64,000 nucleotides of DNA from Lachnospiraceae bacterium (GTDB taxonomy: Bacteria > Bacillota > Clostridia > Lachnospirales > Lachnospiraceae). Positions 11,916 through 17,018 of the stretch are shown piece by piece. The notes below the pieces were generated by a model that was not told the DNA's origin, did not search any database, and was given only the letters and a program-made list of their open reading frames with translations. The stretch is taken from NCBI GenBank assembly GCA_017474455.1, contig JAFVHP010000034.1:124001-188000 (forward strand), in the 5' to 3' direction. Position 1 is the first letter of the stretch; each line of letters begins with the position of its first letter. The position numbers were made by a program, and so were the translations under genes.

Positions 11916-11944
11916 TTGACAATTCTGTAGTTTTTAGTCAAAAT
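11916..11944 (+). promoter_or_regulatory. Candidate promoter of the C-glycoside cassette
   Basis: A perfect TTGACA (11916-11921), a 17-base spacer and CAAAAT (11939-11944, 4 of 6 matches). It would give a leader of roughly 145 bases before the TTG start at 12096. The -10 is weak, so an activator or another -10 nearby is possible. Confidence 0.45.
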
Positions 11945-12095: not shown

Positions 12096-13061
12096 TTGAA
12101 AGCACTTATCATTTATTATTCGCAGTCCGGAAACACCTATAAGGTCGCCAGACAGATCGGAAAAGGCATCCGGGATACCGGCGCCGACGTAAAGCTGATC
12201 AAACTTAAGGAAGCAGACTATGAAATGCTGAAAGAGTATGATCTAATCGGCTTCGGTTCTCCCACCTGGAAGGCCGACACGCCGAACATGCATGCCTTTA
12301 TCGATAAACTGCCTGAACAGGACGGAAAGCACTGTTTCTGCTTCTGTACCCACGGGACGCTTCCGCACCTCTATTTTCCCATTGTCGTTCCCAATCTGAA
12401 AAGACATGGCTTCAATGTGATCGGATACAAAGACTGGTACGGGGATGTGTACATGCCCGGTATGCCGAAGCCGTATTATACCTGCGGTCATCCTGATGAT
12501 ATCGATCTTAGGGAAGCATATGAGTTCGGTAAGGAGATGGCTGAAAACAGCCCGCGTATCACGGCCGGAGAGGAAGGGCTGATCTATCCCGAGCCCGAAA
12601 TGAACGCGAAAGTCTTCCGTCAGGCCATGATCTGCTCCAACATGCTCCTTTGTCCGACAAACCCGCAGGGGGCTTTTGTCCGCGATCCTGAAAAATGTCT
12701 TTACCCGAAATGTACGATCTGTATGGACAACTGCATGATGGGCTATATCGATCTTTCAAAGGATCCCCAGGTCTTCGGCAACAGGGGAGATAAGTGTGAC
12801 GACTGCCATGAATGCTCCTACTGTTACATGCTCTGTCCGAGCGGGGCGATCACTACCGATCCGGACCATAAATTCGCACACGACATCAATGCCCCGCATG
12901 AAGCATTTGAAAAAATGCTGGAGGAGGATGAAGTGACCGGCAAGTTCAGACGTCTGATCCCGCTGGACCAGGTCGGTTATGCAACGCCGTATGTATACTG
13001 GCATCCCGAAAGGCCTTATATGAAGGTACCGAAGATGACCGATGACCTTGATGAAGAATGA
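12096..13061 (+). CDS. Flavodoxin-ferredoxin fusion protein
   Basis: The 321-residue protein joins an N-terminal flavodoxin-like FMN domain (phosphate loop SQSGNTYKVARQ at residues 9-20; FGSPTW at 53-58) to a C-terminal ferredoxin-like part. The latter has one four-Cys set at 201, 206, 209 and 213 and a second at 234, 237, 240, 243 and 247 (last one in CPSGAI), enough for two [4Fe-4S] clusters. It resembles the EFR1-type ferredoxin family. It is probably a soluble electron carrier or small oxidoreductase; the substrate is unknown. The start is TTG with AAAGGA 7 bases upstream. It is the first gene of the 12096-14938 cassette, so it may serve redox steps of the same pathway (inference). Confidence 0.85.
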   Translation: MKALIIYYSQSGNTYKVARQIGKGIRDTGADVKLIKLKEADYEMLKEYDLIGFGSPTWKADTPNMHAFIDKLPEQDGKHCFCFCTHGTLPHLYFPIVVPNLKRHGFNVIGYKDWYGDVYMPGMPKPYYTCGHPDDIDLREAYEFGKEMAENSPRITAGEEGLIYPEPEMNAKVFRQAMICSNMLLCPTNPQGAFVRDPEKCLYPKCTICMDNCMMGYIDLSKDPQVFGNRGDKCDDCHECSYCYMLCPSGAITTDPDHKFAHDINAPHEAFEKMLEEDEVTGKFRRLIPLDQVGYATPYVYWHPERPYMKVPKMTDDLDEE

Positions 13062-13080
13062 ACAAAGGAGGGCAAAACAA

Positions 13081-13359
13081 ATGATAAGAAGAGTAATAAT
13101 CAATCACATTGATCCTGAATTTGTCGAAAGCTATAAAGAAGCCAGCAAGGATCTGCTGGCCGCACTGAAAGAAAAAGAAGGACTTCTGGAGGGATCTGTC
13201 CTGATCTGTGAAGATGATCCCACACTTGTATTCAATATCGAGACATGGGAAGATGCGGAAACAGCCGGGAAAGCCCACATGACGGAAACATTTGCTTCCT
13301 TCATGCCCAGGCTCCGGGGTTTTAAAGGCAACGAGACCTATGTTTTGAAAGAGATCTGA
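13081..13359 (+). CDS. Small ABM-like (dimeric alpha/beta barrel) protein
   Basis: The 92-residue protein starts at the ATG at 13081 behind a strong AAAGGAGGGC. Upstream in-frame codons would overlap the previous gene and lack such a site. The pattern of a beta strand (RRVIINHID), a helix (PEFVESYKEASKDLLAALKEKEGLLEGSVLIC), then NIETWEDAETAGKAHMTETFASFMPRL resembles antibiotic-biosynthesis-monooxygenase-like ferredoxin folds, which act on quinones and other small aromatics without a cofactor. Fold assignment is by pattern only; its role in the cassette is unknown. Confidence 0.65.
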   Translation: MIRRVIINHIDPEFVESYKEASKDLLAALKEKEGLLEGSVLICEDDPTLVFNIETWEDAETAGKAHMTETFASFMPRLRGFKGNETYVLKEI

Positions 13360-13392
13360 TGCTGCAGAAATGATGATAAGGAGGTATCATTC

Positions 13393-13854
13393 ATGCCAAA
13401 GCGCACAATTGAAGAAGGCTCATTGAGAAACTTCACATGTCCGGAAAGCGGGAAAGTCATCGGCTTCAAGTTCGGTGTCCGTCTTCCCCGTTACCGCGGC
13501 AACATGGTCTCACTGATCAACGGCTATTATGTCAGTGTAGACGGGGAAGAGTTCCCGCAGGATAAGATCCGGTTCCAGATCAACGGGAAAGAACCCCGGA
13601 CATTCGAAGAACTGAAAACGGCTGTATGGGAACACTGGAATTATCAGGATACAGCATATCTCTATATCGAAAAAGAAGGCGGTCTTGCCCCCGGCGAGCA
13701 CACTGTTACCGCTGTTGTTTCAAACTTTGAACAATACGGATACAATCCGGCGACCGACCAGAAAAGAGTGGATGAAATAACGGTCCCCACCGCGGCAGGA
13801 ATCGGTCTCGGCGGCCCTTCCGCACCCCAGACACTGTCCCTGGAAGAGGACTGA
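13393..13854 (+). CDS. DUF6379 protein, putative C-glycoside deglycosidase beta subunit
   Basis: The 153-residue protein matches the DUF6379 pattern as I recall it: SLRNF near the start, GFKFGVRLPRYRGNMVSLINGYYVSVDGE, FQINGK, a WNYQDTAYLYIEKEGGLAPGEH segment and a TDQKRV tail. Characterised relatives (DfgB, CarB, DgpB) are the small subunits of C-glycoside deglycosidases, which cleave the C-C bond between a 3-oxo sugar and a flavonoid or anthraquinone aglycone. A GGAGG precedes the ATG. The next gene encodes a protein that fits the catalytic alpha subunit, 40 bases downstream. No signal peptide, so cytoplasmic. Substrate unknown. Confidence 0.8.
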   Translation: MPKRTIEEGSLRNFTCPESGKVIGFKFGVRLPRYRGNMVSLINGYYVSVDGEEFPQDKIRFQINGKEPRTFEELKTAVWEHWNYQDTAYLYIEKEGGLAPGEHTVTAVVSNFEQYGYNPATDQKRVDEITVPTAAGIGLGGPSAPQTLSLEED

Positions 13855-13894
13855 ATCCAGTCCGCACCGTTTTAGACAGATAAAGGAGATTAAT

Positions 13895-14938
13895 ATGTCG
13901 ACTATCAAAAGAGGAGTATCTTCATACAGCTATCAGAACCTGATCTTTGACAGGAAAATGGACTGGAAGGGTTTCATCAGGACGGTCCGTGAAGATCTGG
14001 ATACTGACGGCATCGAAATCGTTGATGAGACATTTCTGGATGACTATCCGTTCGTTACCGACCGCTTCGTTTTCGACTGGAATAATGAAATGGCCAAATA
14101 CGGCATGAAAGCCGTAACGATGGATATATATCTCGATGTCCTGCAGTTCCGCGACCATGTCATGTCACACAAAGAAGCAGCGGAAAGAATGAAGAGGGAC
14201 CTGATCATTGCTTCCAGGCTGGGGTTTGAAAATGTCCGGTGCCTGGCGACCATCCCGACCGACGTTATCGAAATGAGCCTGGAGACCGCTGAAAAATACA
14301 ACGTCCGGATCGGCAAGGAAGTGCATGCGCCTATCCAGATCAATTACGACGAAGCGACCAACCGCAACCCGAAAGGCGTCGTAGAAGCGGATTTTGTGGA
14401 CAGGACCATCGACCTTATCCAGGAAACAGGCACAAAGCATCTTGGCTTTGTACCTGATATGGGCCTCTTCCAGTCAGGCTATACCCCTTCCATGGTCGAA
14501 CAGGCAAAGAGGACTGTCGGTGCCGACCTTGTGGAAAAGATCCTTGAAATGAAGAAAGAGTGTCCGCCTTCCGAGATCCAGGCCTGGATCAGGAAGGAAC
14601 GTCCCGACGTCAATCTGTTCTCCATCGGAAGACTGATCCAGCCGCAGGCCAGCGCGGAGACATATGAACTTCTGAAAGTCATCCCCTATACCGTCAGTAT
14701 CCACGGCAAGTTCTATGAGATGATCGAAGATCCGGCCGATCCGGGGCACTATTATGATCCTTCGATACCTTATGACGAAATATTCAAATATCTGAAGATG
14801 GGTCATTACAACGGCTATATCGATTCAGAGTTTGAAGGGCAGGGCAACCGGAACGACCTCCCGGATGAGGAAATGTTCGATGAACGCGAACAGGTCCGCA
14901 GGCAGCATCTGATGATGAAAGATCTGGGCGCTGTCTGA
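13895..14938 (+). CDS. Sugar-phosphate-isomerase-like TIM barrel, putative C-glycoside deglycosidase alpha subunit
   Basis: The 347-residue protein belongs to the xylose-isomerase-like/AP-endonuclease-2 TIM-barrel superfamily. Candidate metal ligands are Glu142 (KEVHAP), Asp188 (VPDMG), His270 (SIHGK) and Glu312 (IDSEFEG), the order expected for a divalent-metal site. In characterised systems (DfgA, DgpC, CarC) such a subunit with a DUF6379 partner cleaves 3-oxo-C-glycosides. Adjacency to a DUF6379 gene is the main support for that reading over a plain sugar isomerase. No Gfo/Idh-type oxidoreductase for the preceding 3-oxidation is visible in this window. AAAGGAG precedes the ATG. Confidence 0.8.
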   Translation: MSTIKRGVSSYSYQNLIFDRKMDWKGFIRTVREDLDTDGIEIVDETFLDDYPFVTDRFVFDWNNEMAKYGMKAVTMDIYLDVLQFRDHVMSHKEAAERMKRDLIIASRLGFENVRCLATIPTDVIEMSLETAEKYNVRIGKEVHAPIQINYDEATNRNPKGVVEADFVDRTIDLIQETGTKHLGFVPDMGLFQSGYTPSMVEQAKRTVGADLVEKILEMKKECPPSEIQAWIRKERPDVNLFSIGRLIQPQASAETYELLKVIPYTVSIHGKFYEMIEDPADPGHYYDPSIPYDEIFKYLKMGHYNGYIDSEFEGQGNRNDLPDEEMFDEREQVRRQHLMMKDLGAV

Positions 14939-14967: not shown

Positions 14968-15540
14968 ATGAACCGTTTCTTCAGTTCCCGCGGGTTCCGC
15001 GAATCTGAAATAAAGAAAAATGAAAACGAGGCAGACAGGTTTTTAAAACGCCGCAGAAAAATCGTCCGCGACGGAAGAAAACCTGTCCTGCCCGGTTTCT
15101 GTACGATCATCCGGCTGATGATGTTTATCCTGCCGGTACTGGACGCTGCGGTCGAAGCCATTGTATGGCTGGAAGGCAAAGTATCCCTTACTTTCGGCAT
15201 GTACCTGAAGCGTGTGTTCTGGTCTGCTTTTATGATCTGGCTCTTTTTTGCCTGCATCCTGATCCTTTTATCCGTGATCATGCTGTACAGGGCGGCTTAT
15301 CGCGGCTATGAGGAAAGGGTCTATCTGTTTTTAGACGAAATACCGGCAGGAGAGGATCCTGCCGGTTATGAAAAAGAATATGACCTTACTTCAGAAGAAG
15401 ATACCGATGAATCACTGGTCCTGTACAGCAGGCCCGCAGATGTTTCCGCTGACAAACGTTATGGCGGCTATATCAGGGAGTCTCTGACCGGGCTCATCAT
15501 TCTCGGCGTCCTCTACGCTGTTTCTCACTTTTTCTTATGA
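14968..15540 (+). CDS. Small membrane protein of unknown function
   Basis: I do not recognise this 190-residue protein. The N-terminus is charged and basic (about residues 10-40). Hydrophobic segments follow at about 43-65, 75-105 and, after an acidic linker rich in Glu and Asp, a last one at about 170-190 that ends the protein. The ribosome binding site is weak. It begins 30 bases after the cassette and could be co-transcribed with it. Its stop overlaps the convergent polyphosphate kinase gene by 16 bases. Confidence 0.7.
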   Translation: MNRFFSSRGFRESEIKKNENEADRFLKRRRKIVRDGRKPVLPGFCTIIRLMMFILPVLDAAVEAIVWLEGKVSLTFGMYLKRVFWSAFMIWLFFACILILLSVIMLYRAAYRGYEERVYLFLDEIPAGEDPAGYEKEYDLTSEEDTDESLVLYSRPADVSADKRYGGYIRESLTGLIILGVLYAVSHFFL

Positions 15541-17018
15541 GCCGCCTCTTTGCAGGCTTTTCTCAGTTCTTCCGTAACGATCTTCAACGCCTTTATCCGG
15601 GCGTATTTTTTATCATTTGATTCCAGTACATACCACGGCGCAAAAGCAGTACTGGTCTTCTGGATCATTTCATTGACCGCCTGTTCGTAGAGATCCCATT
15701 TTTCACGGTTTCTCCAGTCTTCATCCGTGATCTTCCATTGTTTTTCAGGAGTATTCTGCCTGTCGGTAAACCGTTCGAGCTGAGTCTTGTTGTCTATCTG
15801 GACCCAGAATTTGATCACGACAGCGCCCCAGTCATGAAGTTCTTTCTCAAATTCGTTCATCTCGTTATAGGCGCGCTGCCAGTCGTTCTCACTGCAGAAT
15901 CCTTCCAGTCTTTCTACCATTACCCGCCCGTACCATGTTCTGTCAAAGATCGCGATATGTCCGTCTTTGGGAAGCCTTGTCCAGAATCTCCAGAGGAAAT
16001 GTCTTGCCTTTTCATGCGGCTCAGGGCTGGCGATAGGGTGGACTTCAAAGCCCCTGGGATCCAGTGCGCTGGTGATTCTCTTGATATTCCCGCCTTTGCC
16101 GGCCGCATCCCATCCTTCATAGGCGATAATGACAGGTATGCGCCTGCGGTAGATCTCGTTGTGCAGAACGGAAAGTTCATTCTGAAGTCTGTCCAGTTCC
16201 TTTTTGTACTCTTCATCAGAGACTGTCTTATCGTCCAGACTGATCTCCGACAGTTTCGGGACCTTTTTAAGCGGGAACGTATTCTGGAGGATCGGAACGG
16301 CCAGCGAGTGGTTTTTCAAAGCAGTCTCGATCCCCTGGTTCAGATACTGCAGCACCTGGAGAAGAGCCCATTTCCTGCTTTTGGCATCGATAATATACCA
16401 GGGAGCCGAAGAGCGGTCGGTATCGGAAAGATACTGTTCATAAACATCCAGATATTCGCTGTAATGCCGGTTCTGGACATAATCTTCCTTAGATACGCGC
16501 CAGCTGGTATTCTTACTGTCGTTCAGTTCGTCCAGGCGTGATCTCTGTTCCTTTTTCGAAATATGGAAAAAGAATTTCATGACGAGATATCCGTTGTCCG
16601 TCAGAGATCTTTCCGTCCTGTTGATACTGTCTACCCGTTTTTTGTACTCATCATCCGACAGTTCCTTTTTTACACGGCCGGCAGTGATCTCATCCATCCA
16701 GTAGGAATCAAAAAAAGTGAACTTCCCGGCTTCCGGAATATCTTTCAGGTATCTGTATAAGAACGGATATCTTTTTTCTTCTTCCGTCGGCGCGGTCGTA
16801 GTCCTGACCTTGAAGAACCTGGGGTCGATGTCCCTGATCACTTTTCCGATGATGCTTCCTTTGCCGGCAGCTCCCCAGCCTTCAAAGATGACCATGACCG
16901 GAAGCTTCGCCTCTTTGATCTTCATCTGGTAACCGGAGAGTTTTTCTCTGGCGGCTTCCAGTTCATTATTCAGTTCCTCCGCTTCCGGTGCGGCTGTTTT
17001 TACATAATCCTTCAGCAT
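15525..17018 (-). CDS. Two-domain PPK2, polyphosphate:AMP phosphotransferase
   Basis: The 497-residue protein holds two PPK2 domains in tandem. The N-terminal Walker A is EGWGAAGKGS (residues 46-55) and the C-terminal one EGWDAAGKGG (301-310). The second domain keeps the full family pattern (FDRTWYGRVMVERLEGF), while the first has FFDSYWMDE in that place, which suggests the C-terminal half carries the main activity. Tandem PPK2 proteins of this size transfer phosphate from polyphosphate to AMP. AGAGGA precedes the ATG. Convergent overlap with the upstream-coordinate membrane protein gene. Confidence 0.9.
   Translation of the reverse strand: MLKDYVKTAAPEAEELNNELEAAREKLSGYQMKIKEAKLPVMVIFEGWGAAGKGSIIGKVIRDIDPRFFKVRTTTAPTEEEKRYPFLYRYLKDIPEAGKFTFFDSYWMDEITAGRVKKELSDDEYKKRVDSINRTERSLTDNGYLVMKFFFHISKKEQRSRLDELNDSKNTSWRVSKEDYVQNRHYSEYLDVYEQYLSDTDRSSAPWYIIDAKSRKWALLQVLQYLNQGIETALKNHSLAVPILQNTFPLKKVPKLSEISLDDKTVSDEEYKKELDRLQNELSVLHNEIYRRRIPVIIAYEGWDAAGKGGNIKRITSALDPRGFEVHPIASPEPHEKARHFLWRFWTRLPKDGHIAIFDRTWYGRVMVERLEGFCSENDWQRAYNEMNEFEKELHDWGAVVIKFWVQIDNKTQLERFTDRQNTPEKQWKITDEDWRNREKWDLYEQAVNEMIQKTSTAFAPWYVLESNDKKYARIKALKIVTEELRKACKEAAHKKK

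Follow-up and report, generated by a model that had tools for sequence, protein, structure and literature searches.

C-glycosides resist ordinary glycosidases, and their cleavage in the gut and rumen decides the activity of many dietary and medicinal flavonoids. Among the C-glycoside deglycosidases (CGDs), DfgAB of Eubacterium cellulosolvens (7bvs) and DgpBC of strain PUE (7bvr) consist of an alpha subunit (a TIM barrel) and a beta subunit (DUF6379) encoded by adjacent genes. The alpha subunit of AgCGD2 binds Mn2+ via Glu147, Asp179, His269, Lys271 and Glu305, and its His149 and Glu307 have catalytic roles (PMC8563793; papers given by such numbers are cited from excerpts throughout). Tyr39 in the beta subunit of PuCGE is essential for the cleavage of C-glycosides and hardly for that of O-glycosides; besides C-glucosides, this enzyme cleaves 3-keto O-glucosides (PMC10628242). 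The first step of C-deglycosylation is carried out by DgpA, a Gfo/Idh enzyme with bound nicotinamide adenine dinucleotide, or by GMC flavo-oxidases; for the re-oxidation of DgpA, 3-oxo-glucose can serve as acceptor (PMC11239390). Here we describe a four-gene locus at 12096-14938 of a 64,000-nucleotide stretch (the window) from a Lachnospiraceae bacterium (assembly GCA_017474455.1, contig JAFVHP010000034.1, positions 124,001 to 188,000). Its first gene encodes a flavodoxin-ferredoxin protein (FLD), and its last two encode a DUF6379/TIM-barrel pair that is a CGD by every sequence criterion applied.

The four open reading frames (ORFs) were confirmed as consecutive and on the plus strand, with intergenic gaps of 16, 33 and 40 bp, just as an earlier note made from the sequence alone had described them. 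The features are as follows (roles of the alpha residues after PMC8563793):

12096..13061, plus strand: FLD, 321 aa, a flavodoxin domain with two 4Fe-4S Cys motifs (EFR1-type)
13078..13359, plus strand: ABM-like protein, an orphan, 93 aa (PF03992)
13393..13854, plus strand: CGD beta subunit (DUF6379/CGDB), 153 aa (PF19906)
13492..13494, plus strand: beta Tyr34, aligned to Tyr39 of the PuCGE beta subunit via the DgpB alignment
13895..14938, plus strand: CGD alpha subunit, a TIM barrel of clade W, 347 aa (PDB matches and tree)
14318..14326, plus strand: alpha Glu142 (metal ligand) and His144 (catalytic base)
14456..14458, plus strand: alpha Asp188 (metal ligand)
14702..14710, plus strand: alpha His270 and Lys272 (metal ligands)
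14828..14836, plus strand: alpha Glu312 (metal ligand) and Glu314 (water positioning)

The best overall explanation, which we consider correct with a probability of roughly 0.78, is that genes three and four specify a heteromeric CGD of the Mn2+ type, that FLD carries electrons in a later step and that this genome has 33 CGD loci, including the present one. The main points of interest are this 33-pair repertoire and a carrier gene that was never met without CGD genes in the searches made; the window pair itself belongs to an already known CGD type.

The beta subunit matches PF19906 (DUF6379, named CGDB in Pfam) with 116.6 bits at a cut-off of 27.6 and aligns with DfgB, DgpB and further DUF6379 chains in the PDB. 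The best solved match of the alpha subunit is 8qvc_A (E 4.2e-39), and the partners of DfgB (7bvs_A, E 2.5e-23) and DgpB (7bvr_A, E 4.5e-23) are also matched. All eight of its PDB matches at E ≤ 0.01 are in DUF6379-containing entries or in an alpha-beta fusion, and one of them, 7xrf, is entered with the DgpB sequence. The motif alignment gave a complete metal-ligand set (E142, D188, H270, K272, E312), and the catalytic His and its supporting Glu are present as H144 and E314. The earlier note had placed an E-D-H-E metal site at 142/188/270/312, which proved correct; with K272, H144 and E314 added, every residue of the published set is accounted for. Its assignment of the two proteins as CGD beta and alpha subunits holds for the PF19906 match, the homology to solved chains, the ligands, the catalytic residues and the beta Tyr alike. 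The comparison with the characterised DfgAB and DgpBC that it had called for showed that both subunits match their solved chains.

We infer the following course of the reaction from these likenesses. The glucosyl group would first be oxidised at C3 by a DgpA-like Gfo/Idh enzyme encoded elsewhere in the genome, and the 3-oxo-glucoside would bind between alpha and beta. The metal held by E142, D188, H270, K272 and E312 would, together with His144, abstract the C2 proton, and beta Tyr34 would stabilise the aglycone phenolate. Beta-elimination would then break the C-C bond and release the aglycone together with a 3-keto-glycal; hydration and reduction of the latter may give glucose.

The nearest solved relatives of the window alpha are 8qvc, 8qvd and 8umc, which show the same pairing of a TIM barrel with a DUF6379 partner, although 8qvc_A is matched far better by a clade X alpha of a relative (E 2.4e-75). 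DfgAB and DgpBC have the metal residues, the catalytic residues and the beta Tyr in common with the window pair, but their alpha chains match the window alpha only distantly (E about 1e-23). They also differ from the window locus in that the latter has no Gfo/Idh neighbour and carries the FLD and ABM genes upstream. A clade D paralogue in the same genome matches 7bvs_A with E 8.5e-114. In a tree of 101 alphas, the window alpha falls into clade W (20 leaves, support 1.0), nine leaves of which come from this genome. The window alpha matches no solved chain better than 4.2e-39, and clade W looks like a CGD subfamily lacking a close solved member. All seven metal and catalytic residues are present in 97 of the 101 aligned alphas; three are gapped at the last four positions, probably owing to truncation at contig or stretch ends, and one has Asn in the His144 column. 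Distant relatives of the alpha (<60% identity) were found in 21 of 72,556 plasmid records. The locus does not correspond to a dgpABC-type operon, in which the Gfo/Idh oxidase gene lies within the cluster. However, an in-cluster Gfo/Idh gene does not define a CGD, because dgpA of C. scindens is also located apart from dgpBC (PMC11170127).

The genome of 2.62 Mb contains 33 PF19906 places on 14 contigs, and none was found in 14 control genomes. The window and 26 further stretches fetched from this genome yielded 33 beta and 34 alpha domains, four in alpha-beta fusions. Almost every beta (32/33) is fused to, overlaps or lies within 187 bp of an alpha, and in the remaining case a fused gene intervenes between the beta and its likely partner alpha. 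All seven metal and catalytic residues are present in 34/34 alphas, and the C-glycoside-specific Tyr in 33/33 betas. The alpha and beta distances correlate with r 0.81, and none of 2000 permutations reached this value (over 32 nearest-neighbour pairs, in which one alpha appears twice), which is expected of partner subunits. In stretch L011 (4859-7610) two alpha genes flank a single beta gene, so that one beta may serve two alphas.

With an assembly in 51 contigs and no CGDB copy in 54 of 60 sampled congeners, an artefact of assembly or binning was considered as a source of the 33 copies. This explanation is very improbable. The copies are spread over 14 contigs, they stand among core genes (which we take to be, for example, those of ATP synthase and ribonucleotide reductase), and completeness and contamination are 96.55 and 1.3, respectively. 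Furthermore, the alphas are 19-78% identical to each other with a median of 29%, and therefore the copies are not assembly duplicates.

Three points weigh against the assignment of the pair and its copies to C-glycoside cleavage. The alpha subunit reaches 24.2 bits with PF01261, under the cut-off of 31.1, and two of the 33 betas are weak matches (49.9 bits, partial, and 37 bits). In addition, since PuCGE also cuts 3-keto O-glucosides, C-glycosides need not be the natural substrate. We regard it as unlikely that the pair forms a same-fold eliminase for O-glycosides or for mixed 3-keto-glycosides, with most of the copies serving O-glycosides. PuCGE acts on 3-keto O- and C-glucosides alike (PMC10628242) and 33 copies seem many for C-glycosides alone, but every beta has kept the Tyr, which O-only enzymes would not require. 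The genome looks specialised for plant C-glycosides, perhaps also O-glycosides.

CGDB was found in 7/61 genomes of the genus sample, with counts of 33 (this genome), 9, 5, 2, 2, 1 and 1, and in 35/397 family, 10/246 order and 4/378 phylum genomes; the four samples overlap and include this genome. The family, order and phylum surveys scored the first candidates per genome (11 or 18 for this genome), and no other CGDB-positive genome listed in them had more than 17 candidates. The genus sample and the FLD-bearing genomes were scored for all candidates, which came to at most 19 candidates and 14 matches elsewhere. The next highest count, 14, was thus shared by Catenibacillus scindens and a 6.4-Mb Clostridiales metagenome-assembled genome (MAG). 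C. scindens and C. decagia belong to the same family as the host and have several dgpBC pairs each. Six dgpBC clusters and a DfgAB homologue were described for C. decagia and four DgpBC for C. scindens, with a 33% identity threshold (PMC11170127). Our PF19906 search gave 14 CGDB matches in C. scindens DSM 106146 against these four, and because the published criteria are stricter, the fair comparison with the 33 places of the present genome is 33 versus 14. In the parts seen of the papers surveyed, each bacterium has a few CGD pairs, as opposed to the 33 divergent pairs here, and no larger set was met in the excerpts of CGD papers, including PMC8398226. No paper on rumen CGDs was among the matches listed, judged by title or the start of the abstract. 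The 33 divergent pairs form a panel for studying how alpha-beta pockets set the substrate range.

Some neighbours recur beside the CGD pairs of this genome. A cluster of 13 lipoprotein-like solute-binding proteins was found beside pairs in 9 of the 26 stretches (L012, L013, L014, L017, L021, L024, L026, L028 and L029); the one member scanned has a C-terminal DUF3502, and a scanned neighbour in L017 is an ABC permease. These proteins are probably parts of uptake systems. Five proteins of another cluster adjoin pairs in L011, L013, L018, L027 and L028, and the one scanned, from L027, is a fusion of an AraC-type helix-turn-helix with a GH39-like domain.

FLD matches NF038196 (EFR1-type) with 81.3 bits at a cut-off of 75 and also PF00258. 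Its Cys residues 201, 206, 209, 213 and 234, 240, 243, 247 are all invariant in 30/30 aligned orthologues, so the flavodoxin/two-cluster ferredoxin fusion seen in the earlier note stands. The N-terminal flavodoxin and the C-terminal two-cluster ferredoxin are common to FLD and the EFR1-family ferredoxins. FLD differs from that family in its spacing (CX4CX2CX3C and CX5CX2CX3CP), in its conserved C-terminal tail and in that its subfamily was found solely in CGD-bearing genomes in the searches made.

FLD orthologues (E ≤ 1e-40) occur in 6/397 family genomes, which belong to six different genera and are all CGDB-positive. Against the background of 35/397, the co-occurrence is significant even without the present genome (Fisher p 3.5e-6, relatedness ignored). 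When GTDB contigs were searched with the six orthologues as an alignment, 33 FLD loci were obtained, and 33/33 of their genomes are CGDB-positive (relatedness again ignored); five of these genomes are also in the family sample. The hosts include Catenibacillus scindens, whose orthologue is 48% identical to the window FLD, Anaerobium acetethylicum, Faecalicatena orotica and many MAGs with rumen or gut titles. In 4 of the 14 loci whose flanks are complete, CGDB lies within about 10 kb of FLD, whereas 0.45 would be expected by copy number (p 7.6e-4, relatedness ignored). An alpha-beta pair is present within 10 kb of FLD in 5/33 loci, and a partial alpha at the edge in one more. Since the orthologues were found only in CGD-bearing genomes, FLD is probably an accessory of CGD metabolism, acting in a subset of CGD bacteria and outside the CGD reaction itself. 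The hunch in the earlier note that FLD belongs to this metabolism is therefore backed at the level of whole genomes.

Several observations speak against such a link. Many of the 33 FLD genomes are rumen and gut MAGs that look related, while our counts ignore relatedness, and two of the four proximity loci (L049 and L051) come from close relatives. No constant neighbour of FLD was found across the 33 loci. FLD was not matched at E 1e-40 in 29/35 CGDB-positive family genomes, nor in the remaining six genomes with CGDB in the genus sample, and hence CGD action does not need FLD. FLD and CGDs might share genomes merely via plant-feeding rumen and gut Lachnospiraceae, with no functional link. This would fit the predominance of rumen and gut MAGs, the lack of a constant neighbour and the fact that FLD was not seen beside CGD genes elsewhere. 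It is less easily reconciled with the six genera of the carrier genomes in the family sample, all CGDB-positive, and with the proximity excess over the expected 0.45, and we consider it rather unlikely, though deserving of some weight.

The relation of FLD to individual CGD clades was followed in 66 stretches covering part of the CGD loci, 46 from 25 FLD-bearing and 20 from 17 FLD-lacking genomes, 16 of the latter having yielded an alpha for the tree. Clade X alphas are present in 18/25 and clade W alphas in 10/25 of the FLD-bearing genomes, versus 4/16 and 1/16 of the FLD-lacking ones. An obligatory link of FLD with one CGD clade was considered, but the present genome has no clade X alpha and so no single clade is required. 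The sole clade W case among the 16 FLD-lacking genomes is G351 (stretches L140 and L141; lacking FLD at E 1e-40), which has one alpha in each of the clades W and X. The arrangement nearest to that of the window among the FLD loci is found in L071, where both a clade W alpha-beta pair (at about 5-7 kb) and a Gfo/Idh-type gene (at 1.4 kb) lie upstream of the FLD orthologue. In L055 (3989-4951), the FLD orthologue of a Blautia MAG contains one in-frame stop.

With regard to function, FLD as a glycoside 3-oxidase was rejected because it has no dehydrogenase domain above cut-off. The earlier note had correctly observed that there is no Gfo/Idh gene in the window, and none was matched anywhere on the window's contig. 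However, other contigs of the genome contain 15 Gfo/Idh matches, 14 of them above cut-off, and five lie 3.0-6.4 kb from other CGD genes. Given these 15 matches, the separate location of dgpA in C. scindens and the recycling of DgpA by 3-oxo-glucose, an own redox step appears unneeded; with such recycling, the anaerobic cycle would need no outside carrier.

The proposal that the locus is a CGD variant that performs a redox step of its own is thus not supported, as Gfo/Idh enzymes are encoded elsewhere and DgpA is recycled by 3-oxo-glucose. In this variant, FLD, together with the ABM-like protein, would re-oxidise or replace the glycoside 3-oxidase, and the four genes would form one unit. The close spacing and common orientation of the genes, the absence of all four from the same site in congeners and the finding of FLD orthologues only in CGD-bearing genomes are in its favour, and a Gfo/Idh-type gene within 6 kb of FLD in 4/33 loci (L061, L071, L075 and L076) makes some oxidase link possible. 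On the other hand, FLD lacks a dehydrogenase domain, the ABM-like protein matches a monooxygenase family and no sugar oxidase, the ABM gene was matched in 1/397 family genomes, neither an adjacent CGD gene nor an ABM gene was found in any of the 33 FLD loci, the genome has its 15 Gfo/Idh matches and DgpA can be recycled by 3-oxo-glucose (PMC11239390). We therefore judge such a unit improbable.

FLD is probably not the sugar oxidase and would most likely carry electrons in a later step, e.g. the reductive handling of the aglycone. Within 6 kb of FLD in some relatives, gene clusters recur in 3 to 6 of the 33 loci each. They include an OYE-family reductase (L049, L051, L069 and L073), a flavin mononucleotide (FMN) reductase (L061, L074 and L076), the Gfo/Idh-type gene mentioned above, a class II aldolase, a thiolase accompanied by a zinc ribbon protein of the ChsH2 type, a sugar kinase and two dehydrogenases (kinase and dehydrogenases labelled by us). 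These neighbours suggest a role in product processing, and a link to the oxidase is also possible. In L049, L050, L051 and L073, the genes near FLD encode a thiolase, a zinc ribbon protein of the ChsH2 type and a protein resembling acyl carriers. This set is reminiscent of the acylphloroglucinol acyltransferase (Phl) set, and by this likeness C-acyl chemistry on aglycones is possible. Riboflavin degradation was considered as an alternative role of FLD, and nothing on C-glycosides was found in the excerpt of PMC12934955. A literature search for C-glycosides with flavodoxin or ferredoxin had no paper on such a carrier among the matches listed.

Tentatively, and with somewhat less than even confidence, we propose that the FLD subfamily is a dedicated and apparently undescribed redox component of anaerobic C-glycoside catabolism, supplying electrons to the steps after the C-C cleavage, and that the host is an extreme specialist with a substrate repertoire of 33 pairs. 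If this is true, the 33 pairs, each with its own aglycone pocket, would parallel the polysaccharide-utilisation loci for glycans, and forage flavone C-glycosides would be the likely diet, should the host live in the rumen as do the closest relatives that have the carrier. As a marker found in CGD-bearing genomes only, the FLD gene hints that the pathway includes a redox step so far unexplored.

The ABM-like gene is the least explained part of the locus. The family assignment in the earlier note holds (PF03992, 29.6 bits, cut-off 23.1), but the protein has 93 and not 92 residues. Its best PDB matches are weak (4dpo, E 0.0035; the putative anthrone oxygenase 7bio, E 0.022). The host family suggests a strict anaerobe, and if the host is one, an oxygen-dependent ABM monooxygenase activity is doubtful. 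At E 1e-8 the gene was matched in just one of the 397 family genomes, namely this one, and at E 1e-3 no match was found in the other CGD stretches of the genome. It was also absent from all 33 FLD loci, and in none of these does a CGD gene adjoin FLD (in 11/33 a contig or stretch end lies within 1.5 kb on one side). A conserved four-gene cassette was rejected on these grounds, and mapping of co-occurrence did not bear out the expectation that the four genes are kept together in relatives. The ABM-like protein would accordingly be seen as a local passenger.

The block is accompanied downstream by two further genes:

14968..15540, plus strand: family-less protein of 190 aa, starting 29 bp downstream of the alpha gene
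15525..17018, minus strand: two-domain polyphosphate kinase 2 (PPK2; PF03976, 461 bits in two stretches)

The flanking genes are presumably lexA and yneA on the left and XerC, AI-2E-like and DTD genes on the right. At the lexA-yneA site, none of FLD, ABM, CGDB, CGDA, the 190-aa ORF and PPK2 was found in 15 congeners, these being the ones compared out of 21 with a lexA match. A right-flank gene was also seen in nine of the 15 (XerC or the AI-2E-like gene in five, only DTD in four), and the remaining six show the left flank only; in congener L142, some 100 bp separate yneA from XerC. As the block was not found at this site in the congeners, the simplest view of the region 12.0-17.05 kb is that it was inserted in the present genome. 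An arrival of the four genes as one block fits this picture, which is no proof of it. The nearest relatives of FLD, 70-76% identical, come from Lachnospiraceae and Blautia MAGs, and no FLD was found in the 60 sampled congeners; this distribution of sequences suggests that FLD was gained horizontally.

The 190-aa protein had no match above cut-off in the profile libraries, and its gene possibly belongs to the same transcript as the four-gene block. The PPK2 gene, located between yneA and the XerC-like recombinase gene on the opposite strand of the inserted stretch, is probably unrelated to the CGD locus. A promoter scan found 7 candidates versus 5.6 expected in shuffles, i.e. no better than chance; TTGACA-17-CAAAAT is present at 11916-11944, upstream of the FLD gene. 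The start codon of FLD is TTG, preceded by GAAAGGA, and an alternative start of the ABM ORF at 13042, overlapping the FLD gene, is possible.

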